The notes under the pieces: model-generated | What the model saw: the letters and a program-made list of their open reading frames with translations, nothing else | Database searches by the model: none | Told to the model about the DNA's origin: nothing | In this document: piece by piece, positions 1,511-30,062 of the stretch | How positions within the stretch are numbered: the first letter of the stretch is position 1 | How the letters are laid out: every line of letters begins with the position of its first letter | Position numbers and translations under genes: made by a program | NCBI GenBank assembly: GCA_902786285.1 | Contig: CADABX010000008.1 | Span: forward strand, 1 to 47,722 | Direction of reading: 5' to 3' | Length of the DNA stretch: 47,722 nucleotides | Origin: Oscillospiraceae bacterium | GTDB lineage: Bacteria > Bacillota > Clostridia > Oscillospirales > Acutalibacteraceae

Positions 1511-3103
1511 TCAGCGTTGAAACAGCGTTTTGAGGAACGTGCCGAGCGCACGGAAGAAGTCGCGCAGCACCGTCCAGAAGGTTCGTTTTGTGCCGGCGGT
1601 GTTGTCCTCGGTGTCGTCGATCGACCGGATCGGCGTCAGCGTGCCGGTGGCGTAATCGGAGCCGGCGCTGTTCGTTGGCGTATACTGCAAAAACTGCGGA
1701 TAGGCCGGATCGGTAAAGACCGTCATGTTGTCGTTGTTGGCAAACGCAACGCAAAGATCGTTGACGCAGTCCGGGAAATGGGTATGATACAGATCCTTGG
1801 TGAACCAGGTCGTGTCCGGAAACAGCGCCGTTGCGGCGTCGATTTTGCAATCGGCGGACAGATAGCGCGCGTGCCCGCTCTGCACCGCCTTGCGGATATA
1901 GCTGTCGGACAGCGTTTTGTTGTAATCCGCAGCCTTCGCGCCGTAGGACGCGTAGCCGACGCTCACATAGCCGTCGCTTTCCTCGTTTGCGTCGTCGGAC
2001 AGCGGGAACGCCGGATAGCCGTATTTTGCGATCACGGCAAAGCGCACGTCGTCCTTGAGGGCAAGCAGTTTTTCGTTCATCTGCTTTTGCATCTCATAAT
2101 AGGCGTCGGTTTTTTCCAGCAGTCCGGCATATTCGTCCTCCACGCCCTGAAACACATAGGCGCGGGCTGTTTCGTAATATGCGGGCGAAACCATTGCCCA
2201 ATAGCTCGGGAAGGTTGCAAAGGTCGCACGCAAAATCGGCACCATTGCTTCCTTTTTGAACGCGTTATAGGTGCGCATAAAGCGGTCGAGTCCGACGCCG
2301 ACCAGCTTCATCTCGTTGGCGAGCGCAAGCAAAACAAAGATCAGATCGGTCGTCTGTTCGTCGCGGATGACCAGATTGTTCGAATCGCGGTAATAGCTCA
2401 AAAAACGTTCCAACGCGTTCGGGTCAACGGTCAGCTCACCCGAAAACAGCGCGTTTGCTGCGCCGATGCCATAGGTCGAGCTGGAATAGAAGGTGCTCGA
2501 GTGAATCTTGTCGCCACCGTAGGTATACAGATAGGCATACACGATGTTGGTGGACAGGCAGCGCGAGATCAGATCCACCTTTTCGGCGCCGGTCTCCTCC
2601 AGCACCGCGTCGATCAGATCGCGCAGCTCGTCGGCCAGCGTAATCGGCGACAGCCGCCAGTCAAAGTGCCAGCGGTAGACCGGATAGCGTTCGCCGCTTG
2701 CGAGCGGGATCGTCTCCTTGATATTCGACAAAGAGCCCTGTCCGCGCCACATATTGCCCGGATATACATGCGATCCGTCGGTCGGCGTGCCGTCCTTGCC
2801 AAGCGCTTCGGTTTCATAGACCGGCACCACCGTCTCATACAGCAGTTCACTGAACGGCCCGTAATCTCCGGTATAATCGCCGTGGAACGAGCGCTTTACC
2901 AGCTCCGTGAGATTCGGCTGCAGCCGGCTCATCAGGTCGATACCGAGATTATAGACCTGCGTGCCGTCGTCGCGGTACAGACCGATGCCCTGCCCTTCCA
3001 GATAGATCATCGGACAGGCTGTCTGCGCCTCATCCGCAAACGCGGGCACCGCAAGGCCCAGCAGCAGACAAGCCGTCAACAATAAACTGAACAATCGTTT
3101 CAT
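1511..3103 (-). CDS. Secreted alpha/beta-hydrolase (lipase-like) protein
   Basis: A 530-residue exported protein. The start at 3103 was chosen because GGAGG lies 8 nt upstream; an ATG five codons earlier lacks an RBS. Residues 1-24 form a signal peptide ending in AFA. Residues about 30-200 resemble lipase/acyltransferase alpha/beta-hydrolases that act on lipids (YRWHFDWRLSP, then a helix and EKVDLISRCLSTNIVYAYL). The nucleophile elbow, normally G-x-S-x-G, reads S-R-C-L-S, so the serine position is occupied by cysteine. The remaining 300 residues are helical and not assigned. It is the last gene of the minus-strand run, 44 nt after the GNAT gene. It could be a cysteine-nucleophile hydrolase or a catalytically dead relative. 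Confidence 0.65.
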   Translation of the reverse strand: MKRLFSLLLTACLLLGLAVPAFADEAQTACPMIYLEGQGIGLYRDDGTQVYNLGIDLMSRLQPNLTELVKRSFHGDYTGDYGPFSELLYETVVPVYETEALGKDGTPTDGSHVYPGNMWRGQGSLSNIKETIPLASGERYPVYRWHFDWRLSPITLADELRDLIDAVLEETGAEKVDLISRCLSTNIVYAYLYTYGGDKIHSSTFYSSSTYGIGAANALFSGELTVDPNALERFLSYYRDSNNLVIRDEQTTDLIFVLLALANEMKLVGVGLDRFMRTYNAFKKEAMVPILRATFATFPSYWAMVSPAYYETARAYVFQGVEDEYAGLLEKTDAYYEMQKQMNEKLLALKDDVRFAVIAKYGYPAFPLSDDANEESDGYVSVGYASYGAKAADYNKTLSDSYIRKAVQSGHARYLSADCKIDAATALFPDTTWFTKDLYHTHFPDCVNDLCVAFANNDNMTVFTDPAYPQFLQYTPTNSAGSDYATGTLTPIRSIDDTEDNTAGTKRTFWTVLRDFFRALGTFLKTLFQR

Positions 3104-3147
3104 CTTTTGAACCTCCAAATGTTGCTTCGCACGATTTTTTTCAAAAT

Positions 3148-4095: not shown

Positions 4096-4682
4096 GCTTC
4101 CAGTTCCTCCAATGCCCGCAAAAATGTATCGCGCCCCACAAAATCGTTGAGCACCCGCAGCAGCGCCGATGTGGACAAATGCTCCGGCAGCGCAAGCGCT
4201 TGCAAAAGCTGTTTGCGCCTTTGCGCACTGTTCGGTCTGCCGGAAAGACCGAGGCTGAACAGATCCGCCGTTGTCAGCGGTTCGTCCTGCGGCAGCGTGC
4301 TTTGTGTCGCCGTGATCCCGGCGCGCCGGAACGCGTCCAGCAGCACCTGCTCGCTCATGCCTTCCACACCGAGCTTGCCTTCCGCGCCGGGGGTTTTCTT
4401 GCGTTTTTCCTTGCCGTAAAGATCGGGCACATACACATGTGTCAGATACTGCGGCGGAATGCTCGATTGCAAAAAGTTGCGGATCAGAAACCCGGCGGAA
4501 TCGCTGTCGGTTAAAACGATCAGCCCCCGCGTTTCGGCGATCCGGCGCAAAAACGCCAGCTTCTCTTTGTTTTTAAAAATGCCGAACCCGTCTGTGGTGA
4601 GAATCAGCGTGTCGAGCAGATTGGACAGCTTGATCTTGTCATACTTGCCCTCCACGATCACCGCCTGCTGCAACCGGATCAT
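4092..4682 (-). CDS. rnmV: Ribonuclease M5
   Basis: Toprim-type nuclease that matures the 5S rRNA ends in Firmicutes. The 196 residues carry the Toprim glutamate in [12 protein letters not shown] (residues 8-19) and the DxD motif in [14 protein letters not shown] (about 58-71), then the basic linker [14 protein letters not shown] and the C-terminal helical domain (DUF4093). It overlaps holA upstream and ispF downstream by 4 nt each, so three genes are translationally coupled. Confidence 0.92.
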
Positions 4683-5716
4683 ACGCGTTCACCGTTGGCG
4701 ATCAGCAGCAGCCGCACGATCAGCTGTTCGAGCACAAGCGCGCCGCTTTCGCCGGTCGATTTCAGTTTGCGGTCGGCTTCCTTCAGCGTATCGAGCGCCC
4801 GGCGGATCTGCGGCAGCGTCAGCTTTGCCGCGTCGCGGGCAGCGTTCTGAATTGCGAATTCGCGGCCCTTGTAGCCGTAGGCGCCGATCAGACTTTGCAC
4901 GCTGCCGCCGCAGGACACGGCAACCTTCGCACGGTAAAGATCGATATACGCGCCGTTGAGCGCGCCGAGAATATAGTACGGCTCCACGCGCATCTGCAGC
5001 AGTGTGTCGAGCACACCGTAGGCTTTGTCAAAGTCCTGCTGCAGCAAAAACCGCGCCAGACCGTAGACCTTTGCGTCGAGCGTTTTGGTCGCCACCGCGT
5101 CGATATGCGCCTTGGTAATTTCGCCCTGCGCATAGGCGCAAACCTTTTGCAGCTCCTGAATCAGCATATGAAAATCGTCGCCGACACACGAGACGAGATA
5201 CTGCGCCATGGCGGATGACAGAACGCAGCCCTGCTTCGACGCCGAGGCGATCAGCGGACGGTACAGCTCCTGGCCGCTGCGCTTTTGCAATTCGCACACC
5301 GCGCCGTATTTCTGGAACAGGTCGCGAACCTTCTTGCCCGTCTTTTTGGAAACGGGATTGAGCGTTTGCAAAAACAAAACGATCGCCGTGTCCGGCAGCG
5401 CCGAAAGGCCGTCCGTCAGCAGCTGCAGATCGCGTGCGGAAATCGGGTCAAGCTTCATGTCGTCCACCACGATCACACGCCGGTCGGCCATCATGGGCAT
5501 CGTTGCCGCCAGGTCGAACACATCGCGCAAATCGACGCTTTTGCCGTCGAAGCGCTCCACATTGAACGACGCGAACGCCTTGTCGGCCGCCGCGTCCACA
5601 AGCTTGTCGAGATACAGCTTTTTGAGGTAATCCTCCTCGCCGACAAACAAATAGCACGGCAGAAACGATTGCGCCTTAATATGCGCGCACAACGCTTTTT
5701 CGTCAAAGACCGCCAT
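4679..5716 (-). CDS. holA: DNA polymerase III subunit delta
   Basis: The delta subunit of the clamp loader, which opens the beta clamp. The 345 residues match the family size. The sequence shows the AAA-like N-terminal fold without a functional P-loop (FVGEEDYLKKLYLDKLVDAA), the segment FNVERFDGKSVDLRDVFDLAATMPMMADRRVIVVDD typical of HolA, and the C-terminal helical collar (LLQMRVEPYYILGALNGAYIDLYRAKV). It follows comEC by 31 nt, the common Firmicute order comEC-holA. Confidence 0.95.
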   Translation of the reverse strand: MAVFDEKALCAHIKAQSFLPCYLFVGEEDYLKKLYLDKLVDAAADKAFASFNVERFDGKSVDLRDVFDLAATMPMMADRRVIVVDDMKLDPISARDLQLLTDGLSALPDTAIVLFLQTLNPVSKKTGKKVRDLFQKYGAVCELQKRSGQELYRPLIASASKQGCVLSSAMAQYLVSCVGDDFHMLIQELQKVCAYAQGEITKAHIDAVATKTLDAKVYGLARFLLQQDFDKAYGVLDTLLQMRVEPYYILGALNGAYIDLYRAKVAVSCGGSVQSLIGAYGYKGREFAIQNAARDAAKLTLPQIRRALDTLKEADRKLKSTGESGALVLEQLIVRLLLIANGERV

Positions 5717-5747
5717 GCTCTCACCGCTTTCAACAAGATTCTTTTTA

Positions 5748-7271
5748 TTATAACACGTTTTTCAGTAAATGGTCAAGTCTTTGCCGGCGATAAAGCCAAA
5801 TTGCAAAAATAACCAGCGCACCGGCACAGACGGCCAGCGCCGCGGCGGCGGCGCTTTTGGGCAATGTCAGCTCGGCAAACGGCATCCCGCCCAGCCACCC
5901 GGCCACCTTGATGCAATACTGCGCCAGCGTGTCGGTCAAAAACCGCAGCGCATCGCCGAGCAGCGGCACGGCGTGCAGCGCCAGAAACAGCCCGGTGAAC
6001 ACCAGCACCGGCAGCAGAAACGGCAGCAGCAAAAGATTCGTCACAACGCCCAGGAGCGACACGGTGCCGAACGCGTAGATCTGCACGGGCAGCGTGACCA
6101 CGCCGACACAAAGGCTCATGCATACCGACGTGCCCGCGCCGGCAAGACCGGACGAAAGCGCGCCGGGCAGCTGCTTTTGTTCAATCGCTTCTTCCAGCCG
6201 ATTGGCTGCAGGCAGCGCGAATACCAGAATCGCCAGCGTGGAAAGCACCGACAGCAGAAAGCCCACATGCATGCAGAACGCCGGCCTTGCAATCAGCAGT
6301 ACCGTTGCGGCAAAGCCGAGCGCATTGACAGCGTCCGGCTTTTCACCCAGCACAAAGCCGAACAGATACACAATCATCATCAGACCCGCGCGCAAAACCG
6401 AGCCGCTGAAGCCGGCAAACGCCATCAGCAAGACAACCACGCCCGACAGCACAAGACCCGCCGTGCGCAGATTCTGCGTCCTTCTGCGCCACAGCGCGAT
6501 CAGAAAGAACACCCACGCCGACAGATGCAGCCCGGACACGGCCATGATATGCGCCGCGCCGGCGCGCCGGAACGATTGATACAGCCCGTCGGGCATCCCG
6601 CCCTTTTCGCCAAACAAAACCGCCGTCAAAAAGCTCGCCTGCGCGTCGCCGAACGAGCGGTTCAGCACTTCCACCATCCGCTGCCGCAGCCGCAGCACCC
6701 GGGCATAGGGCGACACCCGCGCCGCCCGCTGCACAGTCACCCGCAGCACCGGCCGCGCACCCAGAAACAGCATCCGGCCGTGATAGGACCGCACGGAATC
6801 GCGGTTGTCGCCGCCGAGCGCAAACAGACTGCCCGCAAACTGCAGCCGGTCGCCCGGCGCGAGCTGGTCCGTTTCGGGTGTGCCCGGGTTCAGATAGACG
6901 CGCACTGTGCCCGGAATCCGTGTGCCGTCGTCACACGCTGCCTTCACCGTGCAGACGGTGCGGCCTTTGTAATCGGTATAGGGATAGGAGCTGACGGTAC
7001 AGTTGAGCGTCCGGCGGGTGCCGGCAAGCGACAGCGTCGGGACGCGGCAGCAGGTGCAAAAAAGCAGAAAAAGCAAACAGCCCGTCAGCGCGCTGAAAAA
7101 GCACAGCGGCAAACGGGCGTCTTTGCGGATTTTTGGATGCAGCAGACTGCACAAAAACAGTACGAAGCAGACCGCGCCTGCGATCATGACCGGTTTTGCG
7201 TCGGACACAAACGAAAGCGCGAGCATCACGAAGAACAGCGTCAGGCCGGAAACGGCAAACGGACGGGTCAT
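5748..7271 (-). CDS. comEC: ComEC/Rec2-type DNA uptake channel, short form
   Basis: A polytopic membrane protein of 507 residues. Residues 1-85 hold three hydrophobic segments, about 85-190 the OB-like DUF4131 region (GDRLQFAGSL), and about 200-490 the Competence domain (HIMAVSGLHLSAWVFFLIAL, FSGSVLRAGLMM). ComEC carries single-stranded DNA across the membrane during transformation. Full-length proteins have a further C-terminal metallo-beta-lactamase-like domain of about 250 residues. Here the protein stops after the last membrane helix, and the next gene follows at once, so that domain is missing. AAGGAG lies 5-6 nt before the ATG. The short form may have lost transformation activity or use a separate nuclease. 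Confidence 0.88.
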   Translation of the reverse strand: MTRPFAVSGLTLFFVMLALSFVSDAKPVMIAGAVCFVLFLCSLLHPKIRKDARLPLCFFSALTGCLLFLLFCTCCRVPTLSLAGTRRTLNCTVSSYPYTDYKGRTVCTVKAACDDGTRIPGTVRVYLNPGTPETDQLAPGDRLQFAGSLFALGGDNRDSVRSYHGRMLFLGARPVLRVTVQRAARVSPYARVLRLRQRMVEVLNRSFGDAQASFLTAVLFGEKGGMPDGLYQSFRRAGAAHIMAVSGLHLSAWVFFLIALWRRRTQNLRTAGLVLSGVVVLLMAFAGFSGSVLRAGLMMIVYLFGFVLGEKPDAVNALGFAATVLLIARPAFCMHVGFLLSVLSTLAILVFALPAANRLEEAIEQKQLPGALSSGLAGAGTSVCMSLCVGVVTLPVQIYAFGTVSLLGVVTNLLLLPFLLPVLVFTGLFLALHAVPLLGDALRFLTDTLAQYCIKVAGWLGGMPFAELTLPKSAAAAALAVCAGALVIFAIWLYRRQRLDHLLKNVL

Positions 7272-11228: not shown

Positions 11229-12002
11229 TTACATACAGGTGTAGCCGCCGTCGACCGGCAGATTGACGCCGGTAACATAGGACGACGCCTTCGACGCAAA
11301 GAACAGCGCCGCACTGTCGAGTTCTCCCTCTTCGCCATAGCGTTCTTCGGGGATCATGGTTTTGGCGTTTTGCTGGAAGAAATCGCTGTTCAGCGTATCG
11401 CGGGTCAGATCGGTATAGAAATAGCCCGGGCAGATCGCGTTGACAGTGATGTTGTATTTGCCCCATTCGGCAGCCAGCGCACGGGTCAGGTTGACCACGC
11501 CGCCCTTGGCTGCGTGATACGGTGCGGAGCCGGCGATCTTGTTGCCAACAAGGCCGTACATGGACGCGATGTTGATCACACGGCCGTACTTTGCCGGGAT
11601 CATCGCTTTCTTTGCCACGGCGCGTGCCACGCGGAAGGAGCCGAACAGGTCGATGTTCATCTCGTTGCCGAACTGCTCGTCGGTGATATCTTCGGCGGGC
11701 GCCACAGCGCCGGTGCCTGCGTTGTTCACAAGAATATCGATGCGGCCGAATTTCGCCAGAACGGCGTCCACCATCGCTTCCACCTGTGCGGTGTCGGTGA
11801 TATCGCAGCGGACAGCCAGCGTTTCCACGCCGTATTCCGCTTTGATCGCGGCGGCAACGTCGTCGATCATGTTCTGTCTGCGCGCCACGGCAACAATGGC
11901 CGCGCCCTGGTTGGCGAGCGCCTTTGCCATCTGGACGCCGAGGCCGGTGGAGCAGCCGGTGACGATGGCAACCTGTCCCTTGAGATCAAAATAGTTTTTC
12001 AT
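11229..12002 (-). CDS. Short-chain dehydrogenase/reductase
   Basis: A 257-residue classical SDR. The nucleotide-binding motif is TGCSTGLGVQMAKAL (TGxxxGxG), followed by NNAGTG and the catalytic Ser-Tyr-Lys set (NIASMYG and YHAAKGG). The C-terminus PVDGGYTCM is the usual SDR end. The overall pattern is closest to gluconate 5-dehydrogenase-like/3-ketoacyl reductase-like NAD(P)-dependent enzymes; the substrate is not certain. It forms a single-gene transcript with promoter at 12049 and terminator at 11185. RBS GGAGG lies 9 nt upstream of the ATG. Confidence 0.9.
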   Translation of the reverse strand: MKNYFDLKGQVAIVTGCSTGLGVQMAKALANQGAAIVAVARRQNMIDDVAAAIKAEYGVETLAVRCDITDTAQVEAMVDAVLAKFGRIDILVNNAGTGAVAPAEDITDEQFGNEMNIDLFGSFRVARAVAKKAMIPAKYGRVINIASMYGLVGNKIAGSAPYHAAKGGVVNLTRALAAEWGKYNITVNAICPGYFYTDLTRDTLNSDFFQQNAKTMIPEERYGEEGELDSAALFFASKASSYVTGVNLPVDGGYTCM

Positions 12003-12048
12003 GGTTACAACCTCCGTTGGTCAGTTTCCCGTTATGCGGGTCGTTTCT

Positions 12049-12077
12049 ATTATACCTGCCGCGAAGAGAAAAAGCAA
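12049..12077 (-). promoter_or_regulatory. Promoter of the SDR gene
   Basis: TTGCTT (12072-12077), 17-bp spacer, TATAAT (12049-12054) on the minus strand. Confidence 0.85.
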
Positions 12078-12177
12078 GTCAAAAGTTAGCAAAGACTTAC
12101 TTTTTCGTCAAATTTGTGTTATAGGTTGCACAGATTTCCCGATTATTGAAACAAATTGTGAAAAATCACAAGCGCGC

Positions 12178-12228
12178 TTGCATTTTACGGGTTCGTGTGC
12201 TAAAATATGGACAGTGAACAACGGTTCA
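12178..12228 (+). promoter_or_regulatory. Promoter and 5' hairpin of peptide unit 1
   Basis: TTGCAT (12178-12183), 17-bp spacer, TAAAAT (12201-12206). Transcription should begin near 12213. The RNA would begin with the hairpin TGAAC-aacg-GTTCA (12215-12228). Confidence 0.85.
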
Positions 12229-12260
12229 TCGATTCTATTTAAATTATGGAGGAACATACT

Positions 12261-12401
12261 ATGGATTTCATCAAGACCCTTATCGATCAGATTCTCGGCG
12301 CGATCAAGGCAATCGGCAGCGACAACAGCAAGATCGGCAACGTCATCGACGCGCTCAAGAACATCTTTGCGAGCCTCGGCAAAAAAGACGACGCTGAATA
12401 A
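12261..12401 (+). CDS. Amphipathic small peptide 1 (46 aa)
   Basis: Unrecognised 46-residue peptide starting MDFIKTLIDQILGAIKAIGS. An Ile/Leu-rich amphipathic helix (2-19) is followed by a polar SDNSKIG turn, a second amphipathic helix (NVIDALKNIFASLG) and an acidic tail KKDDAE. No signal peptide, double-glycine leader or cysteines. GGAGG lies 8 nt before the ATG. It is the first of eight similarly built genes, each with its own control signals. Size and helix pattern recall leaderless bacteriocins and staphylococcal beta-type phenol-soluble modulins, but no sequence homology is claimed. Confidence 0.82.
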   Translation: MDFIKTLIDQILGAIKAIGSDNSKIGNVIDALKNIFASLGKKDDAE

Positions 12402-12415
12402 GAACCAACCGAAGA

Positions 12416-12447
12416 ACGGCTGCCGCGGCGGCCGTTTTTCTTTTTTC
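12416..12447 (+). terminator. Terminator of peptide unit 1
   Basis: ACGGC / GCCGT stem with a GC-rich interior (12416-12435) followed by TTTTCTTTTTT. Confidence 0.8.
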
Positions 12448-12725
12448 GGGGCAGATTTCCCCTGCGCCAATGGTATCAGCTTCAGAAAAAGCGTTGCCCT
12501 CCCCGCTGCCACTGCAACGCAGGCGCGGCTATATGGGGAGGGCTTTTGTTGCCTGCTCCTTAAGTTAATGACTTTCCCCTGTGTGCAGCCGCTCACCGGA
12601 AAAGCGCGCAAAATCGGCACCAAAATTCCGGAAAGAGGAAGGAAATTACACCGATTTTATACATTTTATCCAAATTATTAAAACATCTTTTTACATTTTT
12701 TGTGCGCTTTATTCCGATGAATCTA
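12448..12725. other. Peptide 1-2 spacer with competing hairpins
   Basis: No gene is seen. It holds GCGTTG (12491-12496) that can pair with CAACGC (12515-12520), and GCCCTCCCC (12496-12504) that can pair with GGGGAGGGC (12535-12543) followed by TTTTGTTG. The two helices share bases and exclude one another, so this could be a terminator/antiterminator or a small RNA. The rest is AT-rich. Confidence 0.5.
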
Positions 12726-12786
12726 TTGATTTTTTGTAAACAATGTGTTAATATATTCCCGTGAGATGAGATCTCGAAACACTCAC
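12726..12786 (+). promoter_or_regulatory. Promoter and 5' hairpin of peptide unit 2
   Basis: TTGATT (12726-12731), 17-bp spacer, TAATAT (12749-12754). The expected transcript start near 12761 coincides with the hairpin GAGAT-gag-ATCTC, which is enclosed by an outer GTGAG / CTCAC pairing option. Confidence 0.85.
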
Positions 12787-12815
12787 AACATATTTTATTA
12801 AGGAGGATATATCCC

Positions 12816-12980
12816 ATGAAAGACTACATCCAAAAAGCTAGCAACATTGGTCTTGCTATCATCAAAATCGTGAAGGCTATCTTCAAGATCTTCGGCATCA
12901 AAGAGCTTGAATATGATGTGACCGGCGAAAACTGGGATAACATCAAAGACGGACTTGATACCATCGCTGACCAGTTCTAA
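12816..12980 (+). CDS. Amphipathic small peptide 2 (54 aa)
   Basis: Unrecognised 54-residue peptide. Residues 5-29 form a cationic, Ile-rich amphipathic helix (AIIKIVKAIFKIFGIK). Residues 30-40 are an acidic linker with the array's only Trp in this region (ENWDN). Residues 41-54 form an acidic helix (IKDGLDTIADQF). No Cys and no signal peptide. AGGAGG lies 9 nt upstream. The plus-charged first helix and minus-charged second helix recur in the other units. Confidence 0.85.
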   Translation: MKDYIQKASNIGLAIIKIVKAIFKIFGIKELEYDVTGENWDNIKDGLDTIADQF

Positions 12981-13000
12981 GTCAAAACAAAACAAAAGAA

Positions 13001-13030
13001 AGAGTCGGGTTTCCGGCTCTTTTCTTTTTA
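13001..13030 (+). terminator. Terminator of peptide unit 2
   Basis: AGAGTCGG-gttt-CCGGCTCT with one G-T pair, then TTTCTTTTT. The TCGG...CCGGC core recurs in several other units of the array. Confidence 0.85.
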
Positions 13031-13072
13031 CATTTTTCTTAATGGAATTACCAGCGTTTTTTTTAAAACCTC

Positions 13073-13101
13073 TTGTATTTTGCGGGCGGATATGATAGAA
13101 T
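13073..13101 (+). promoter_or_regulatory. Promoter of peptide unit 3
   Basis: TTGTAT (13073-13078), 17-bp spacer, TAGAAT (13096-13101). This unit has only a weak 5' pairing (TTG / CAA, 13106-13122), unlike the others. Confidence 0.82.
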
Positions 13102-13145
13102 AGCCTTGCTAATAATAAACAATGAAGTAATAGGAGGAAATAATT

Positions 13146-13316
13146 ATGGATTTCGATAAGATCAAGGGGTTCTTCAACGGCGTGATTAAGCTTGTTGCGA
13201 AGATTTTTGAACTCTGGCTGTCAGACAAAGATATCGCTGACCTCGGCGAAGACAACAGCAATGTCAACACCATCATCGACGAAATGGAAAACATCTTTAA
13301 CCAGTTCAAGAAATAA
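13146..13316 (+). CDS. Amphipathic small peptide 3 (56 aa)
   Basis: Unrecognised 56-residue peptide opening MDFDKIKGFFNGVIKLVAKI, clearly related to peptides 5 and 6 (MD-[FY]-x-KI-x-x-[LF]FN). The first helix runs to about residue 26 (KIFELWLS), then an acidic/Asn-rich stretch (DKDIADLGEDNSNVN) and a second acidic helix IIDEMENIFNQFKK. Calculated net charge is about -4. No cysteine or leader. AGGAGG 7 nt before the ATG. Confidence 0.85.
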   Translation: MDFDKIKGFFNGVIKLVAKIFELWLSDKDIADLGEDNSNVNTIIDEMENIFNQFKK

Positions 13317-13329
13317 GTCATCATAAGAG

Positions 13330-13358
13330 CAGGAAGCAAAACCGTTTCCTGTTTTTTT
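13330..13358 (+). terminator. Terminator of peptide unit 3
   Basis: CAGGAA / TTCCTG stem followed by seven T. Confidence 0.75.
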
Positions 13359-13369
13359 ATCGCTGATAC

Positions 13370-13420
13370 TTGCTTTTTCTATATAAGTATGCTAGAATAC
13401 AGCCATGAGATTACCATCTC
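13370..13420 (+). promoter_or_regulatory. Promoter and 5' hairpin of peptide unit 4
   Basis: TTGCTT (13370-13375), 17-bp spacer, TAGAAT (13393-13398). The hairpin GAGAT-tacc-ATCTC (13407-13420) lies at the expected RNA 5' end (start near 13405). Confidence 0.87.
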
Positions 13421-13445
13421 TGAAATCTTTTAAGGAGGAAATACT

Positions 13446-13601
13446 ATGGAAGAATTTATTGCTATTCTTGATCAGTTGGTCGCATTTTTGATGAAACTGC
13501 TCAAAAACATCGGCGCGTTCGGCGACAACGATAAGCTCCCCGGCGTGCTGCAGCAGTACTATGACGACGCCAAAACGGTTGGCGAAGCAATCGCTGAATA
13601 A
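13446..13601 (+). CDS. Amphipathic small peptide 4 (51 aa)
   Basis: Unrecognised 51-residue peptide. Residues 2-25 form an amphipathic helix (AILDQLVAFLMKLLKNIGAFG), sharing the KLLKN[IV]G segment with peptide 6. A DNDKLPG turn follows, then an acidic C-terminal helix with a YYDDAK segment. AGGAGG 7 nt before the ATG. No Cys, no signal peptide. Confidence 0.85.
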   Translation: MEEFIAILDQLVAFLMKLLKNIGAFGDNDKLPGVLQQYYDDAKTVGEAIAE

Positions 13602-13612
13602 GTTTATACAGC

Positions 13613-13639
13613 ATAAGCCGGTCATCCGGCTTATTTTTT
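13613..13639 (+). terminator. Terminator of peptide unit 4
   Basis: Perfect 9-bp stem ATAAGCCGG-tcat-CCGGCTTAT, then TTTTT. Confidence 0.92.
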
Positions 13640-13674
13640 ATGAATAAATCTTTAATTTTTTTCAAACAAATGTA

Positions 13675-13724
13675 TTGAAATTCCGGAAATAATATGGTAG
13701 TATAGTTGCAGGATTTCCATATCC
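13675..13724 (+). promoter_or_regulatory. Promoter and 5' hairpin of peptide unit 5
   Basis: TTGAAA (13675-13680), 17-bp spacer, TAGTAT (13698-13703). The hairpin GGAT-ttccat-ATCC (13711-13724) lies at the expected RNA 5' end. Confidence 0.86.
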
Positions 13725-13749
13725 GAGTTTTCAGAAAGGAGAAACAACG

Positions 13750-13917
13750 ATGGATTACAACAAGATTAAGGAATTGTTCAACACCTTCCTTGGCTTTTTG
13801 ACCAAGCTGCTTGTCGGTCTCGGCGTTCTCGAGAGCGAAGACAAGACTCCGTACGGCGAATACATCAACGATTTCGTCGGCCTTGCCGATCAAGTCAAAG
13901 ACGCACTCGACAAATAA
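13750..13917 (+). CDS. Amphipathic small peptide 5 (55 aa)
   Basis: Unrecognised 55-residue peptide opening MDYNKIKELFNTFLGFLTKL, the closest relative of peptide 6 (LFNTF[LV]GFL.KLL). The hydrophobic helix runs to about residue 27. The linker LESEDKTPYGEYIN is acidic, and the last helix ends VKDALDK, like peptide 6's IKDAFNK. GAAAGGAG lies about 8 nt before the ATG. Peptides 5 and 6 probably arose by duplication. Confidence 0.87.
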   Translation: MDYNKIKELFNTFLGFLTKLLVGLGVLESEDKTPYGEYINDFVGLADQVKDALDK

Positions 13918-13930
13918 GTTTTTTGTGCAC

Positions 13931-13960
13931 AAAAAGTCGGGCAACCGGCTTTTTCTTTTT
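13931..13960 (+). terminator. Terminator of peptide unit 5
   Basis: AAAAAGTCGG-gcaa-CCGGCTTTTT then CTTTTT. The preceding TTTTTTGTGCAC also occurs after peptide 6, so the duplication included the 3' end. Confidence 0.88.
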
Positions 13961-14002
13961 GCCTTTTTTTGAACAATTTTTAAATATTATTTGTCCAAAC
14001 AC

Positions 14003-14051
14003 TTGCTTTTTTTCATAATATGTGGTAGTATACATCCATGAGTTCTGCTCA
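14003..14051 (+). promoter_or_regulatory. Promoter and 5' hairpin of peptide unit 6
   Basis: TTGCTT (14003-14008), 17-bp spacer, TAGTAT (14026-14031). Hairpin TGAG-ttctg-CTCA (14039-14051) at the expected RNA 5' end. Confidence 0.86.
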
Positions 14052-14074
14052 AATCTAACAAGGAGGAAAACAAA

Positions 14075-14242
14075 ATGGATTTTGATAAAATCATCAGCCT
14101 GTTCAACACGTTCGTTGGATTTCTTCAGAAGCTGCTCAAAAACGTCGGCGTGATCGGCGCAGAAGATGAAGACAAAGCAAACGGCTACAAGGGCGACATC
14201 GACAGCCTGATCAATGCGATCAAAGACGCGTTCAACAAATAA
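14075..14242 (+). CDS. Amphipathic small peptide 6 (55 aa)
   Basis: Unrecognised 55-residue peptide opening MDFDKIISLFNTFVGFLQKL. The amphipathic hydrophobic helix spans about 3-27, followed by a very acidic linker (GAEDEDKANGYKGDID) and a C-terminal helix SLINAIKDAFNK. It shares its start with peptide 3, its core with peptide 5 and KLLKN[IV]G with peptide 4, which ties these units into one family. AGGAGG 9 nt before the ATG. Confidence 0.87.
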   Translation: MDFDKIISLFNTFVGFLQKLLKNVGVIGAEDEDKANGYKGDIDSLINAIKDAFNK

Positions 14243-14257
14243 GATTTTTTGTGCACG

Positions 14258-14287
14258 AAAAGTCGGGAAACCGGCTTTTTCTTTTTT
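14258..14287 (+). terminator. Terminator of peptide unit 6
   Basis: AAAAGTCGG-gaaa-CCGGCTTTT followed by TCTTTTTT. Confidence 0.88.
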
Positions 14288-14365
14288 CTCGTAATTGTGT
14301 CATATATTCTGTATTGCTTTGACAAAAAATTCACAAATAGAACAAAGCTTTTTCTCTGCCTGCCC

Positions 14366-14418
14366 TTGTCTTTTTCTTCACAATATGTTAATATATAGCC
14401 ATGAGAAACAGCATTCTC
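14366..14418 (+). promoter_or_regulatory. Promoter and 5' hairpin of peptide unit 7
   Basis: TTGTCT (14366-14371), 17-bp spacer, TAATAT (14389-14394). Hairpin GAGAA-acagca-TTCTC (14403-14418) at the expected RNA 5' end (start near 14401). Confidence 0.87.
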
Positions 14419-14447
14419 GAAAAAAAATGAACGGAGGAAGTATCTTA

Positions 14448-14606
14448 ATGGAAAAGTATCTTGACAAATTTCAGGCCATCCTTGGCGGCATTATGAAACT
14501 CATGTATCGTGTTTTCGGTATCTTCGGTGTAGTTTCTAAAGATGACACGACCGGCGAGCAGTTGGCTGACGCTTTCAAACAGTTCGCAGAGGATATCAAA
14601 GGTTAA
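14448..14606 (+). CDS. Amphipathic small peptide 7 (52 aa)
   Basis: Unrecognised 52-residue peptide. Residues 2-30 are a hydrophobic amphipathic helix with Met/Leu/Phe (LGGIMKLMYRVFGIFGVVS), whose [KR][IV]FGIFG motif resembles peptide 2's KIFGI. The linker KDDTTGE is acidic and the last helix is LADAFKQFAEDIKG. The start at 14448 follows CGGAGG; a longer reading from 14295 has no RBS and crosses the promoter. Peptide 8 follows after 57 nt without a recognisable promoter of its own. Confidence 0.86.
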   Translation: MEKYLDKFQAILGGIMKLMYRVFGIFGVVSKDDTTGEQLADAFKQFAEDIKG

Positions 14607-14610
14607 CAAC

Positions 14611-14636
14611 AAAAAGGCCGGGTGACCGGCTTTTTT
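14611..14636 (+). terminator. Weak terminator between peptides 7 and 8
   Basis: GCCGG-gtga-CCGGC followed by six T. It is shorter than most terminators in the array, so readthrough into peptide 8 is plausible. Confidence 0.7.
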
Positions 14637-14663
14637 ACAAAGCTTACAAAGGAGGATCATTGT

Positions 14664-14819
14664 ATGAGAACCTTGCTCAATTCCATTTTCAACATGGCCA
14701 TCACCCTGCTCAACATGGCAGACAACAACGGCGCTGCCCCGCGCATCTTTTATCTGTTCCAGCGCCGCATCAACGGCTTTATGGATCTGTTCGGCATCAC
14801 CGACGAAACCTTTGGCTGA
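14664..14819 (+). CDS. Small peptide 8 (51 aa), divergent
   Basis: Unrecognised 51-residue peptide, the odd one of the array. It opens MRTLLNSIFNMAITLLNMAD, an uncharged amphipathic helix, then NNGAAPRIFYLFQRRINGFM, which is basic, and ends DLFGITDETFG. Unlike the others it has four Arg, no Lys and only three Asp plus one Glu. AGGAGG lies 7 nt before the ATG, yet no promoter is visible. It is probably expressed with peptide 7 as a two-peptide unit, and a strong terminator follows. Confidence 0.75.
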   Translation: MRTLLNSIFNMAITLLNMADNNGAAPRIFYLFQRRINGFMDLFGITDETFG

Positions 14820-14828
14820 GAACACGCC

Positions 14829-14857
14829 GACCGGCTTTGCGCCGGTCTTTTCTTTTT
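14829..14857 (+). terminator. Strong terminator closing the peptide array
   Basis: GACCGGC-tttgc-GCCGGTC then TTTTCTTTTT, 10 nt after the stop of peptide 8. Confidence 0.92.
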
Positions 14858-24134: not shown

Positions 24135-25049
24135 TTATTTGCTCAGCAGGCCCTTGAAGAAGTCGATGACCTTCTTGAAGAAGTCCGCGATCGAATCAAG
24201 GAGGCTGCGGATGAAGTTCACCTTTTCGTCGTCCTTGTCCTTTACGGTAAAGGTGATATTCACCGCTTTCTCAAGCGTGTGGTTGTTGTTGGCTTTCACG
24301 TCTTTGCCGATCTTCAGCGTGTATTCGCCGGTTGCAAGGTTTTTATAAGTCAGCACAGTGTAGCTGCCTTTGCTGTTGACATCCGGCTTCTGGAAATCAC
24401 TGAACGAAACGTTTGCGACCTTCTTGCCGTCCTTGTCGTAGATGCCGATTTTTTCAAAGTTGGCTGCCTGGTTTTCATCCATACCGCGGCTGAACGTGAT
24501 CGTGATGGTGCCGCTGGGTTCGAGCTCGGCGCCTGCCAGATCCTTGTCGCCGGCTTTCACAGAAACGAGTTCCAGCGGGCTTTCGCCGTTGCCGCCGCCG
24601 GTACCGCTGCCGTTGCCTTTGTTGACAGTAAAGGTAAGCTCATACTTTGCACCGAGGGTGTTGCCGTTGGTATCCTTGAATTCCTTGCCGATCGTCAACG
24701 TATATGTTGCTTTCGCAAGGTTGCCGAGCACAACGCCGACTTTTTTGCCGCCGGGGGTAGTCAAAGAGATGGAAGCAGCATTTCCACTGCCGTCTTTCAA
24801 CTGGATCTTGCCGGAGTTAGAGACCCAAACGCTGCTGTCGGTCACGTTGCCGGAGAAGGTGAGCAGGATGGTGTCGTTTCCGTGAATCTCTGTCGCTTCG
24901 GCGACCGGTGTGTCGTTGATCGTTGCAGACTGCACCGTCAGAGCAGTGCTGCCGCCGCCGTTGCCGCCTGCCGCGAAGGCCGTTGTTGCAACGGAGAAGA
25001 GCATGAGGATCGCCAGCAGGACGCTAAGGGTACGATTGGTTTGTTTCAT
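24135..25049 (-). CDS. Secreted protein with two SbsA-type Ig-like domains
   Basis: A 304-residue exported protein. Signal peptide 1-26 (ends TAFA), then a GGNGGGS linker. Two Ig-like domains of the SbsA/Big_5 type follow (about 35-145 and 160-265), each with a TxTITFSxxM/ILLTFSGNV strand and a YTL.IGK.[FV]K strand, separated by a second GNGSGTGGGNG linker. The last 28 residues form an amphipathic helix with the FFKKVIDFFKGLLSK pattern, resembling the small peptides at 12261-14819. Last gene of the seven-gene operon, 16 nt behind its partner. Possibly a surface binding or adhesion component. Confidence 0.8.
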   Translation of the reverse strand: MKQTNRTLSVLLAILMLFSVATTAFAAGGNGGGSTALTVQSATINDTPVAEATEIHGNDTILLTFSGNVTDSSVWVSNSGKIQLKDGSGNAASISLTTPGGKKVGVVLGNLAKATYTLTIGKEFKDTNGNTLGAKYELTFTVNKGNGSGTGGGNGESPLELVSVKAGDKDLAGAELEPSGTITITFSRGMDENQAANFEKIGIYDKDGKKVANVSFSDFQKPDVNSKGSYTVLTYKNLATGEYTLKIGKDVKANNNHTLEKAVNITFTVKDKDDEKVNFIRSLLDSIADFFKKVIDFFKGLLSK

Positions 25050-26992: not shown

Positions 26993-28066
26993 TTACGCCT
27001 CCTTGTCGTTCGTCTTCGGCGTGCGCATCTCGCTGCCGTCTTTGATGGCCGCAAGCCAGTCGTCGCTGAGCGTAAAGCCGAAAAAGTTCATGTAAAAGTC
27101 CCGCAGTTCTTTGTCGAAATCGAGGTCAAATGTATCAGGATACAGCAGCTTTGTCAGCCACAGCAGCGCCAGCGGCGTTTCCAAACTGGAAGGATGCCCC
27201 ATGCGCGTGATGCCGATCGGGATCTGATAGACCCTTCCCGTTTGCACGGCAGACAGACCCACCCATTTTTCATCGGAGAGGATATAGTCGTCGACCTGCG
27301 CCTCGTTGCAGATGATCAGATCCGGATCCCACGCATAGATTTGCTCCAGCGTGGTATAGGCTTTGTTGCCCTCCATATTCAGAGCACCGCTTTCCAGCGA
27401 GACGTTTGTCGCGCCTGTGTGCGCAATCCATTCGGCGCAGTAGCTGCCCTTGTAATCGGTGCGCACGGCCTCATTGACAGCGTGATACAGCCGCACCGGC
27501 GTTCCGGTCTTTGCAGCTTCGTCCGCACGGTCAAGCGCAGATTGGAACCATTGGATGTATTGCTCGGCCTTTTCGCTTTGCCGCAGCGCTTCGCCCAGCA
27601 CACGCACAGCGCGGAACTGTTCTTCGATCGTTTCAAAATCAATCACGATGTAGGGAATACCCATCGCGTCAAGCTTCTCGCGTTCAGCAGCAGTTTCATA
27701 GACGCCCGCGTTTGTGACAATCAGGTCTGTGCCCCGCGCCATGATCTCTTCCGCGTTGATGGCGCCGCTGTTTTTGACCACCACGGCATTTTGCATTGCG
27801 GGACAAATATCGGCCAGAAGTTTGCTGCGTGCGGCGTTGTTCACAGTGGTGGTGATCCGGTCGCCGTAACCGAACATGACGAGCATCGGTCCGGAGAAGG
27901 GGCACAGCACACTGATCGACTGCGGATCGGCCGGCACGGTGACCGTGCGGCCCGCACAGTCGGTGACAGTGATCCCGTCGGTCTGCGGCTGCGCTTTCGG
28001 CGTACAGGCGCACAGTGCGCCAAGGAGCAGCACACAGACAAGCGCAAGAGAGATCGTTCTTTTCAT
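26993..28066 (-). CDS. ABC importer substrate-binding lipoprotein (BtuF/FepB type)
   Basis: A 357-residue lipoprotein. The signal ends in a lipobox-like LCAC (Cys about 21). The mature part begins ITVTDCAGRTVTVPADPQSI, the standard opening of periplasmic-binding domains for iron-siderophores, haem and cobalamin. ISVLCPFSGPMLVMFG, GTDLIVTN, EEQFRAVRVLGEAL and YPDTFDLDFDKELRDFY further match the helical-backbone family. The ligand cannot be read from sequence. It overlaps the ATPase gene upstream by 4 nt (ATGA). Confidence 0.9.
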   Translation of the reverse strand: MKRTISLALVCVLLLGALCACTPKAQPQTDGITVTDCAGRTVTVPADPQSISVLCPFSGPMLVMFGYGDRITTTVNNAARSKLLADICPAMQNAVVVKNSGAINAEEIMARGTDLIVTNAGVYETAAEREKLDAMGIPYIVIDFETIEEQFRAVRVLGEALRQSEKAEQYIQWFQSALDRADEAAKTGTPVRLYHAVNEAVRTDYKGSYCAEWIAHTGATNVSLESGALNMEGNKAYTTLEQIYAWDPDLIICNEAQVDDYILSDEKWVGLSAVQTGRVYQIPIGITRMGHPSSLETPLALLWLTKLLYPDTFDLDFDKELRDFYMNFFGFTLSDDWLAAIKDGSEMRTPKTNDKEA

Positions 28067-28878
28067 TCTGTTCTTTCCTCCCTGCCGAGCACGGCGATTG
28101 TTTTGACAGGACGCCCCTGTGCGTCGGTCGTTTCCAAGATCGACGCGCGCACGCCGTAAACGTCCAGCAGTGTCTGCGCGGTCAGCAGATCGCTCGGCGC
28201 GCCGATACGCGCAGCTTCGCCCTTCTTCAGCATCACGGCACGCACCGGCAGACCCTTGGATTCAAAATAGAAGGGATGATCCAGCGCATGGGTCGCCATC
28301 AGAACGCCGATCCCGTCGTTTTTCACAAGGTCGGCCAGCGTATCCAGAAACAGCAGTTCGTTTTTGAAGTCCAGCGAGCTCGTCGGTTCGTCCAGCACAA
28401 TCAGCGGCGTTTGCTGCGCCAAAGCGCGGGCAAGCAGCACAAGCTTCAGCTCGCCGCCCGAAAGTGCGGTATAGGGACGGTCGGCAAACGTTTCGATGCC
28501 GACACGCCGCAGCGCCGCGTCGCACAGAGCGCGATCTTCTTTGCCCGGCGCACCGAGCAGTCCGGCCTGCGCCGTTCGGCCCATAAGCACGACTTCACGC
28601 ACCGTGTAGGGAAACGTCGGCGTATGAATCTGCGGCACATAGGCCGCCTGCCGCGCGAGCGTCTGGCGCGTGCAGGACAGAACGTCTTTGCCGCACAGGG
28701 AGACTTTTCCTGAAAGCGTGCGATGAAAGCCCAGCACACAGTCGAGCAAAGTCGTCTTGCCACTGCCGTTCGGGCCGAGCAAACAGACGATTTCACCCTT
28801 TTCAACCATCAGCGACAAGTCCCGCAGCAGCGGTGCTTCACTATAGGAAAAGGAGAGGTTTTGAATTTGCAAAATCAT
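28063..28878 (-). CDS. ABC importer ATP-binding protein (FecE/BtuD type)
   Basis: A 271-residue ATPase. Walker A GPNGSGKTT, signature ALSGGELKLVLLARAL, Walker B LIVLDEPTS and the switch His in MATHAL are intact. The start at 28878 gives MILQIQNLSFSYSEAPLLRDL and overlaps the permease stop by 4 nt; a longer reading is internal to the permease gene. It energises import of a metal chelate or corrinoid-like compound. Confidence 0.95.
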   Translation of the reverse strand: MILQIQNLSFSYSEAPLLRDLSLMVEKGEIVCLLGPNGSGKTTLLDCVLGFHRTLSGKVSLCGKDVLSCTRQTLARQAAYVPQIHTPTFPYTVREVVLMGRTAQAGLLGAPGKEDRALCDAALRRVGIETFADRPYTALSGGELKLVLLARALAQQTPLIVLDEPTSSLDFKNELLFLDTLADLVKNDGIGVLMATHALDHPFYFESKGLPVRAVMLKKGEAARIGAPSDLLTAQTLLDVYGVRASILETTDAQGRPVKTIAVLGREERTE

Positions 28879-29891
28879 GTCCAGTTTCCTCCCCGCGTCT
28901 TTTTGAGCAAATAAACGAAGAAGGGTGTGCCGATCAGCGCACAGAGAATGCCGATCGGAATCTCCGCGCCGGTGAGCGTGCGGGAAAGCAGATCCATCAG
29001 CACCATGAAGCAAGCGCCGAGGGAGATGCTGACCGGAACCAGCTTTTGGTTATTGTTGCCGATCAGCATCCGGCCGATATGCGGAATCACCAGACCGACC
29101 CAGCCGATCGTGCCGCTGATGCACACAGCGGCGGCGGTACAAAGCGTTGCTCCGCCGATCACAAGAAACTGGCAGCGGCGCACATCCAGCCCGAGGGCAG
29201 CCGCTTCGCGTTCTCCCATGGAAAGCACGTTGAGCCGCCAGCGCGACAGGAAAACCAGAAGGATACCGAGCGTCATGGGGATAAGCGCAAGCAGATGGGA
29301 ATAGCCGATTGAAGCAAACGATCCCATAAACCAGAAGGTGATGCTCGGCAGCTGGCTGTAGGGGTCGGCGATGTATTTCATGATGGAGACGAGTGCACTG
29401 AAAAACGCGCCTACAATGGTTCCGCCGAGAATCATGGTGATGGTGGTTGTCACGCGGGAGATGCGTCCGGCAAACCAGCTGAGCACCACAGCCACCAGCG
29501 CGAATACAAACGAAAACAGATAGGTATACACCCCGCCGCCGAAACAGACGATGGCAACGCAGGCGCCGAAGCCCGCGCCGTTGGAAACACCGAGAATGCC
29601 GGAATTGACCAGCGGGTTGCGGAACACGCTTTGGAACGCTGCACCGGACACGGCCAGCGACGCACCGACAAACGCGGCAGCCAGCGCCCGCGGCAGCCGC
29701 AGCTGCCACACGGCAACGCGCGTCGCAAGCGGCACGCTTCCCGGACGGAGGATCGCCGCCAACACCTCATGCACCGGCAGCGGATAGCGTCCGAAAAACA
29801 GCGACGCCGCAACAAACAGAACCGGCAGCACAAGCAGCGACGCAATCAGCACTGCGCCGCAAATCGGTTTTGTGGTTCCGGTTCGTTTCAT
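28875..29891 (-). CDS. ABC importer permease (FecCD/BtuC family)
   Basis: A 338-residue membrane protein with about ten helices. Diagnostic stretches are LPRALAAAFVGASLAVSGAA FQSVFRNPL (one block, split here), NSGILGVSNGAGFGA and SGTIGWVGLVIPHIGRMLIG near the end, the coupling region of FecCD permeases. The start at 29891 (MKRTGTTKP) follows TTGGAG. First gene of the seven-gene operon behind a leader of about 170 nt. Confidence 0.94.
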   Translation of the reverse strand: MKRTGTTKPICGAVLIASLLVLPVLFVAASLFFGRYPLPVHEVLAAILRPGSVPLATRVAVWQLRLPRALAAAFVGASLAVSGAAFQSVFRNPLVNSGILGVSNGAGFGACVAIVCFGGGVYTYLFSFVFALVAVVLSWFAGRISRVTTTITMILGGTIVGAFFSALVSIMKYIADPYSQLPSITFWFMGSFASIGYSHLLALIPMTLGILLVFLSRWRLNVLSMGEREAAALGLDVRRCQFLVIGGATLCTAAAVCISGTIGWVGLVIPHIGRMLIGNNNQKLVPVSISLGACFMVLMDLLSRTLTGAEIPIGILCALIGTPFFVYLLKKTRGGNWT

Positions 29892-30062
29892 AGGTTGTTC
29901 TCCAACAAAAAAGGTCAAACGATGGTTTCTGGCACAGCAGATGCTTTAAAGGTGTACGGAGAAGACAGTATTTCTGAAAACAGAGTATTACTTTCTGTTG
30001 TGCCATTCTTCTCTGTGATCTGTGAGTTTCTGTGAGGCTTTTTCTTTAAAGGCCGCACGTGA
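29892..30062 (-). promoter_or_regulatory. Structured leader of the importer operon (candidate riboregulator)
   Basis: No gene. In the minus-strand RNA, TGGCACA-A-CAG (30005-29995) pairs with CTG-C-TGTGCCA (29940-29930), closing a domain of about 76 nt. The only mismatch is A-C, and smaller stems such as TCTG-tttt-CAGA lie inside. The closing stem ends 38 nt before the start codon. I do not recognise a known riboswitch class. No T-run terminator is seen, so control at translation would be more likely. Function is inference. Confidence 0.5.

Follow-up and report, generated by a model that had tools for sequence, protein, structure and literature searches.

The window, the whole 47,722-nucleotide stretch of Oscillospiraceae DNA analysed here, carries eight small genes of 46–56 codons each on its forward strand at positions 12261–14819. 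Their products, p1 to p8, are 46, 54, 56, 51, 55, 55, 52 and 51 aa long and are encoded at 12261–12401, 12816–12980, 13146–13316, 13446–13601, 13750–13917, 14075–14242, 14448–14606 and 14664–14819, respectively. All eight units have a ribosome site with a strong Shine-Dalgarno sequence and a terminator hairpin. A pattern scan located the terminators of genes 1 (12411–12440), 2 (12998–13023), 4 (13613–13634), 5 (13931–13954), 6 (14257–14280) and 8 (14829–14847); those of genes 3 (13325–13356) and 7 (14611–14636) come from folding, at −15.9 kcal/mol each, and 0 of 200 shuffles were as good. Promoters lie ahead of genes 1–7 at 12178–12206, 12726–12754, 13073–13101, 13370–13398, 13675–13703, 14003–14031 and 14366–14394, and gene 8 has none of its own here. 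An earlier sequence-only reading of this DNA had described eight genes of these sizes, each with a strong ribosome site and a hairpin terminator, as mostly independent units of which the eighth lacks a promoter, and the present analysis recovered the same arrangement.

The seven promoters share the form TTGNNN-N14-TGN-TANNNT, that is, 17 bp between the boxes and an extended −10 element (gene 1 has TTGCAT-17-TAAAAT with extended −10 TGC). The 17-bp spacing had been recognized before; the accompanying term “near-consensus” is too generous for the −35 boxes because only 3–5 of 6 positions match. Across 50 units from the nine loci listed, the extended −10 element with 17-bp spacing recurs in 38, compared with 0.6 in mononucleotide-shuffled upstream DNA, which exceeds chance. 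Folding also predicts a 5′ leader hairpin in six of the seven promoter-bearing window units: at 12214–12229 (gene 1, p 0.215 alone), 12761–12786 (gene 2, p 0.185 alone), 13404–13422 (gene 4, p 0.035), 13711–13724 (gene 5, p 0.195 alone), 14039–14051 (gene 6, p 0.035) and 14403–14418 (gene 7, p 0.020); folding found none downstream of the gene 3 promoter. When folding was compared with mononucleotide shuffles, with two of the leaders shortened, the predicted hairpin had p < 0.05 in 19 of 42 related sequences. Across 23 genus loci, an early leader hairpin occurs in 48 of 62 small-ORF units (about five of these ORFs look spurious by eye) versus 3 of 25 long genes that share the promoter motif. 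Such a hairpin is not exclusive to small-peptide units, since it also precedes 6 of 31 long genes that have the promoter motif in a sample from the own genome. Neither the extended −10 element nor the leader hairpin featured in the earlier reading.

The peptides had been described as alike in architecture rather than close in sequence. BLASTP against a database of the eight sequences, run with no composition correction, links p1, p3, p4, p5 and p6 (p5–p6 at 47% identity, E 2e-16; p4–p6 at 9e-8; p1–p3 at 3e-6; p3–p6 at 5e-6), so these five are paralogues as well as look-alikes; p2 and p7 are linked only at E 0.002–0.004. Three peptides, p3, p5 and p6, begin with MD[FY]xKI, as reported previously. 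The acidic C-terminal helix attributed to all eight does not hold for p8, which belongs to a different family with net charge 0 and an LFQRRIN motif. Homologues of p8 with 38–71% identity sit at the arrays of three relatives (G216, G202 and G206), and p1 has orthologues in G216 (77%) and G202 (66%).

Among small frames, matches with E of 1e-4 or lower place related genes in 9 of 34 genomes from the genus, mostly in one clade. Multi-gene arrays are present in G216, G202, G206, G227, G209 and G228, and the genome that contains the window array has another one as well. This recurrence in related genomes lay beyond what the sequence-only reader could see; one array-bearing genome comes from goat omasum. 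Gene number, composition and sequence of the arrays change fast between species, and among 394 genomes drawn from the order a profile matched one, the own genome. The final count with outside genomes leaves out L127, itself a genus member, and two further genomes at 70% alaS identity. A first scan of genome contigs with p6 found no relative, and a scan of phage DNA and a plasmid tblastn gave no match. Matches of p6 in G170 and G173 were set aside as chance because the open frames that contain them are 405 and 413 aa long; by eye, the one in G170 falls within a gene resembling a phage capsid gene, next to a protease-like one, and looks like a coiled-coil resemblance.

Comparisons between these arrays indicate that the peptide genes are real and under purifying selection. 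The earlier reading had proposed dN/dS below 1 in related arrays as a check on function and frameshifts or premature stops in most units of close relatives as evidence against it. Values of 0–0.81 were obtained in 32 of 33 orthologue comparisons, that is, in all that were computable (the remaining one is saturated), and no frameshift or broken ORF was met in the arrays read. One 50-aa orthologue pair has identical protein at a pS of 0.30. The hydrophobic or polar class of a residue is kept in 79% of 354 substitutions, compared with 53% in shuffles (maximum 63%), in a count that leaves out the p4, p6 and q4 pairs, the G216 comparisons of p2 and p3, and two of the three q5 pairs.

Peptides of the family are about 40–66 aa long and, in all 50 units, Cys-free, and no signal peptide was seen by eye. 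Their net charge averages −3.6, with 49 of 50 at 0 or below and one positive. Hydrophobic moments of the window peptides are 0.50–0.59 and the mean maximal KD is 1.27, which is amphipathic rather than transmembrane; over 19 residues KD exceeds 1.6 in 11 of 50 peptides and 1.9 in one, so most are not transmembrane-like. AlphaFold models suggest a two-helix hairpin for p6 (pLDDT 79, predicted helices at residues 3–24 and 29–54) and for the leaderless amphipathic p1 (pLDDT 73), with pTM of 0.39–0.47 and alignments that contained 3 and 11 sequences; binding to membranes or interfaces is likewise a prediction. The p1 and p8 families keep specific polar residues. Codon usage is ordinary (34th–87th percentile for the eight window genes) and does not support very high expression.

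Searches of Pfam (sets of 8, 28 and 10 peptides), NCBIfam (the eight window peptides) and PDB sequences (one profile) gave no convincing family match, in agreement with the earlier view that no described family fits. Models of phenol-soluble modulins (PSMs) were absent from the Pfam lists for the eight window peptides and from the families listed for the 28 peptides of set A4, and no match at the curated Pfam PSM cut-off was established for these or for the p1 class (A3). Within Pfam, the p1 class comes nearest to PSMalpha (PF17063), in 1 of 10 members at E 0.0017, and p6 to AgrD at E 0.01; both matches are single and weak, as would be expected of any amphipathic helix.

Genes adjoining the arrays include alaS and genes for SDR, GH127, GDSL esterase and aminotransferase proteins, identified mostly by eye, with ten neighbours and tail proteins checked against Pfam; other arrays have neighbours such as a gene for an SNF symporter and an aquaporin-like one. 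The window array adjoins a GH127 gene. In relatives no array was found upstream of GH127 or around the SDR gene in the stretches examined; the contigs of G209 and G228 that carry GH127 do have an array, about 12–14 kb away from it. Inspection by eye showed no gene for modification, immunity or dedicated export, and no Pmt-type transporter, beside the arrays, as the earlier reading had stated for leader peptides, modification enzymes, immunity genes and transporters around this array.

The explanation that we tentatively place first is that an exporter whose gene lies elsewhere carries these leaderless peptides out of the cell, and that they act there, on the surface or within the matrix, as surfactants resembling PSMs, above all the beta type, without being PSM members. 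The arrays constitute a fast-diversifying multigene family, mainly of one genus clade, of leaderless, mostly acidic, Cys-free peptides with a predicted two-helix fold, and most genes are self-contained cassettes of extended −10 promoter, predicted leader hairpin, Shine-Dalgarno sequence, ORF and terminator. The peptides would be expressed in the cytoplasm without processing, would exit through the separately encoded exporter and, at the surface or in the surrounding matrix, could work as surface-active helical peptides. Beta-type modulins are about 44 aa long and acidic to neutral, and tandem peptides related to them exist. By eye, by hydrophobic moment and by their helical models, the array peptides are leaderless, amphipathic and alpha-helical as PSMs are, and they are also multi-copy. 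They differ in lacking sequence membership, in being hosted by gut Clostridia and in lacking a visible Pmt-type exporter alongside. Moreover, staphylococcal modulin genes are few in number and organized into operons, whereas here up to eight genes mostly have a promoter, leader hairpin and terminator each. Of the three guesses in the sequence-only reading, modulin-like surfactants fit best as an analogy and not as a family assignment; membrane remodelling is a less favoured possibility. Several points count against the surfactant explanation: no exporter ties the peptides to the outside, the ordinary codon usage gives no hint of very high expression, and a pure detergent would not need the conserved polar residues of p1 and p8. 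The single weak matches to PSMalpha and AgrD, the pTM values of the models and the occurrence of the early hairpin in some long genes weigh the same way. A further comparison is LspU of Staphylococcus aureus, a PSM-like amphipathic small protein that shares an mRNA with an exported lipase and reportedly traps lipases on the surface of the cell (PMC12607899). It is paralleled in G202, G206 and G216, where an array adjoins a gene for a GDSL/CE2-type esterase whose N-terminus resembles a signal peptide; in contrast, the arrays here are separate, and the window array has GH127 as its neighbour.

It is possible, if unlikely, that the peptides instead stay in the cytosol as membrane-associated small proteins on the inner leaflet, where they would shape or pack the membrane or recruit partners. 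The missing signal peptide and adjacent exporter, the amphipathic rather than transmembrane helices, the housekeeping-type promoters and the conserved polar residues all suit such a role; fast turnover of arrays between species would be unusual for a housekeeping membrane function, and the restriction of the profile to the own genome within the order sample also speaks against it.

Leaderless bacteriocins of the aureocin and lacticin Q type are helical, and the array peptides are similarly leaderless and clustered and are predicted to be helical. Bacteriocins or cytolytic peptides directed against competitors, another of the earlier guesses, would thus accord with leaderless products of 41–66 aa, multi-peptide clusters and rapid turnover. 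They are nevertheless improbable because the class is reported to carry a net cationic charge (PMC6131525) and the array peptides are mostly acidic; by eye, immunity and transport genes were also not seen beside them, although immunity genes may defy recognition.

Secreted proteins in the genus frequently have a cationic amphipathic helix at the C-terminus, under criteria that we set ourselves for what counts as secreted-like and as an amphipathic tail; one example is encoded at 24138–25049 on the minus strand. A link to the array peptides is speculative. In a two-part surface system, diverse free acidic peptides from the arrays would co-assemble with these C-terminal helices of enzymes into a coat on the cell surface that retains exported enzymes without sortase or S-layer anchors. 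We rate this as quite improbable, and slightly more so given that five such tails are partly from members of the genus that lack strong array matches.

Small envelope channels are very improbable, despite the two-helix models and the match in size class and helix type to corynebacterial PorA and PorH, tiny amphipathic helices that oligomerise (PMC3792995). PorA and PorH are cell-wall channels that act in the mycolic-acid wall of their hosts, and the array peptides gave no convincing family match in Pfam. Bacteria of this order are not known to have a mycolic-acid envelope. Type I toxin-antitoxin arrays, in which antisense RNAs silence toxic small membrane peptides, would explain tandem small genes with their own promoter and terminator, yet they are scarcely credible: antisense promoter-like sites, the only trace of an antisense RNA gene sought, occur in 13 of 50 units versus 17.9 in shuffles and are thus not enriched, and most peptides lack a transmembrane-like helix. 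Chance ORFs on regulatory RNAs, which the structured 5′ leaders and terminators might suggest, can practically be dismissed given purifying selection on the protein, the conserved amphipathic pattern and the intact frames.

Many small genes of gut bacteria are skipped by annotation. Here, a coherent, selected and easily recognized cassette is repeated in arrays within one genus clade, and the searches of Pfam, NCBIfam and PDB sequences assigned its products to no described family. Should the peptides prove to be exported surfactants, gut commensals would join the bacteria with modulin-like biology; should they remain in the cell, they would form a new class of membrane-binding proteins in bacteria. 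In either case, the cassette offers a handle with which more such genes may be found without sequence homology.

The array in the window comprises eight small genes on the plus strand, p1 (12261-12401), p2 (12816-12980), p3 (13146-13316), p4 (13446-13601), p5 (13750-13917), p6 (14075-14242), p7 (14448-14606) and p8 (14664-14819), with products of 46-56 aa; all eight lie where the sequence-only reading had placed them. That reading also gave seven of them their own promoter with 17 bp between the boxes, and every gene a terminator, which our analysis bears out. The seven promoters share TTGNNN, a 17-bp spacer and TANNNT, with TG one base 5' of the -10 box, and six terminators were recovered by pattern scan and two (p3 and p7) by folding. 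Located 3' of the p7 terminator, p8 has no promoter of its own within the window; its homologue in the genus relative G202 has one. Codon usage of the array genes is ordinary.

The same unit recurs beyond the window. Across nine loci in eight genomes, an extended -10 promoter with exactly 17 bp precedes 38 of 50 units, compared with 0.6 in shuffled upstream DNA. Folding places a hairpin in 33 of 42 leaders examined, mostly starting 6-10 bases 3' of the -10 box and thus about at the predicted RNA start, with stems that vary by unit (e.g., TGAAC/GTTCA, TGAGC/GCTCA, GGTATC/GATACC and CTGATT/AATCAG); against mononucleotide shuffles, 19 of the 42 leaders (three of seven in the window) reach p<0.05. 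A 5' hairpin of such kind can stabilise a transcript. When the promoter motif served as the handle at 23 genus loci, many of them chosen for their peptides, an early hairpin accompanied 48 of 62 small ORFs versus 3 of 25 long genes (p 2e-8). In a 457-kb sample of the own genome it was present in 9/11 array units versus 6/31 long genes, EF-Tu (by eye) among the six, so the hairpin is not exclusive to arrays; in that sample the two arrays alone combined the complete cassette with a small amphipathic ORF, and a 37-aa amphipathic ORF in L223 had the promoter and lacked the hairpin.

Most of the eight peptides are kin. In BLASTP against a database of the eight sequences, p5 and p6 are linked at 47% identity (E 2e-16), p4-p6, p1-p3 and p3-p6 are also linked, and p2 and p7 join the others at E 0.002-0.004 only. 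Separate from p1-p7, p8 belongs to an LFQRRIN family; p8 homologues accompany the arrays of G216, G202 and G206 at 52, 71 and 38% identity, respectively. A p1-p7 profile matches genes of G216 and G202 (E 1e-9 to 1e-5), and a p1-class profile matches small frames at E 1e-4 or better in 9/34 genus genomes (G000, the 2.39-Mb assembly that holds the window as G000:C8, with G202, G206, G209, G216, G222, G226, G227 and G228). Eight of these form one clade by alaS, with at least 80% identity to the window alaS; the ninth, G222, is at 71%. G225, whose alaS is 95% identical, has no such match in small frames at E 1e-4. In a family sample the profile at E 0.01 matched 9 of 250 genomes, the own genome included, three of them solely in frames >100 aa; in an order sample at E 0.002 it matched the own genome alone among 394. 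Shorter peptides of like character are encoded elsewhere in the genus (e.g., by G204, G218 and G230) and, outside it, within the family (e.g., by G060 and G044). Weak p1-profile matches also fall inside very long open frames of up to 9354 aa (G000:C1:103709, G204:C12:160938 and similar), possibly giant surface proteins.

Read directly, the arrays differ in content and place. G216 has seven units in window order (p1, p2, p3, p4, one p5/p6-like, p7, p8), G202 has seven, and G206 has six and, on the opposite strand, a p8 homologue; at a different genomic place, G227 has four and G209 and G228 have five each. Cassettes lie within about 1.5 kb of alaS at 6/30 genus alaS loci (G000, G202, G209, G216, G227 and G228), the G206 array is about 3 kb away, and the remaining loci, mostly with 66-78% alaS identity, have no cassette within about 1.5 kb. 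By eye, none was seen in a scan of 78 further alaS loci (L127-L204), some with little flank and at least one (L127, from G221) from a genus member. The window array is flanked by GH127, alaS and an SDR gene. In G216 and G202, alaS is followed by the array, then a GDSL/CE2-type esterase and an aminotransferase; in G206 it is followed by the aminotransferase, the esterase and then the array. Distant from the window array, 26993-29918 (minus strand) encodes a binding protein, ATPase and permease that by eye resemble an ABC importer for iron or cobalamin. The own genome has a second array in a DeoC/nitroreductase/NUDIX neighbourhood (by eye), which also recurs in G202 and partly in G206. It lies at 4385-6130 of stretch L079 (G000:C7:9000-18000), where one strand carries a p1-like gene and the opposite strand four further peptide genes. 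In G206, L205 (G206:C1) carries at 11725-13096 a row of four similar MFDKIKEIIGEIKDLFATIGETGF-like genes for 56-61 aa peptides, perhaps a recent expansion, and in L212 (G206:C76) divergent genes for amphipathic peptides again have this promoter and hairpin (minus strand 6484-6657, and a plus-strand unit from the motif scan). Literature searches over open-licence full texts gave no paper on arrays of this type in gut Clostridia, as judged from titles and the opening of abstracts.

These genes are under constraint. Nei-Gojobori dN/dS, for which the sequence-only reading had named values below 1 in related genomes as a sign of real function, is 0 to 0.81 in 32 of 33 orthologue comparisons and saturated in one; the highest values (p2 and p4 against G216) may reflect mispaired paralogues. 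Hydrophobic/polar class is kept in 79% of 354 substitutions versus 53% in shuffles, with low-identity pairs excluded and a BLOSUM alignment that somewhat favours class retention. No frameshift or premature stop occurs in the arrays read; the decay of most units in close relatives, which that reading had named as grounds for rejecting its proposal, is therefore not observed.

The 50 units encode cysteine-free peptides of 41-66 aa with a mean net charge of -3.6 (one positive) and a mean maximal 19-residue hydropathy of 1.27. AlphaFold predicts two helices in p6 (3-24 and 29-54; pLDDT 79, pTM 0.47; 11 aligned sequences) and p1 (2-19 and 25-45; pLDDT 73, pTM 0.39; three aligned sequences). Pfam and NCBIfam gave no match near curated cut-offs for the eight window peptides, and a profile search of PDB sequences gave none; in Pfam, one of ten p1-class members resembles PSMalpha (E 0.0017). 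The main rival to export of these signal-less peptides is that they remain inside the cell on the membrane.

Secreted-like proteins of the genus show a companion feature, often ending in a cationic amphipathic helix. Those with such an end number 8/54 in own-genome stretches, 5/26 in stretches from a further 20 genomes of the genus, 1/27 in stretches of 20 genomes from other genera, and 1/91 near alaS elsewhere (1/93 with L127, L129 and L135 included). Such tails are thus commoner in the genus than in the other stretches sampled (13/80 versus 2/118; pooled p 0.0002), an excess that is not significant against the matched 1/27 alone (p 0.11). Proteins not scored as secreted carry them at 3/274, 3/127, 1/167 and 3/708 in successive samples. 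Tailed proteins with a signal-like N-terminus are encoded at window 24138-25049, 1514-3118 and 44774-45721 (all minus strand; only the first qualifies under our strict rule), at L074 8114-10084, and in L242, L076 and L077; in several, the C-terminal helix follows a CPYCGxxHxG-like motif. Of the five tails found in other genus genomes, three come from G138 and G201, where profile matches are weak (E 0.058 and 0.011, in long frames), which counts against a link with the arrays. Twelve tails from an overlapping genus set average +2.3, and this charge, complementary to that of the peptides, suggests that the two may interact.

We regard it as near certain that the array genes are real, are under selection and form a coherent cassette family. 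The best single reading of their products is that they are exported and act as surface-active peptides, and we hold it tentatively.
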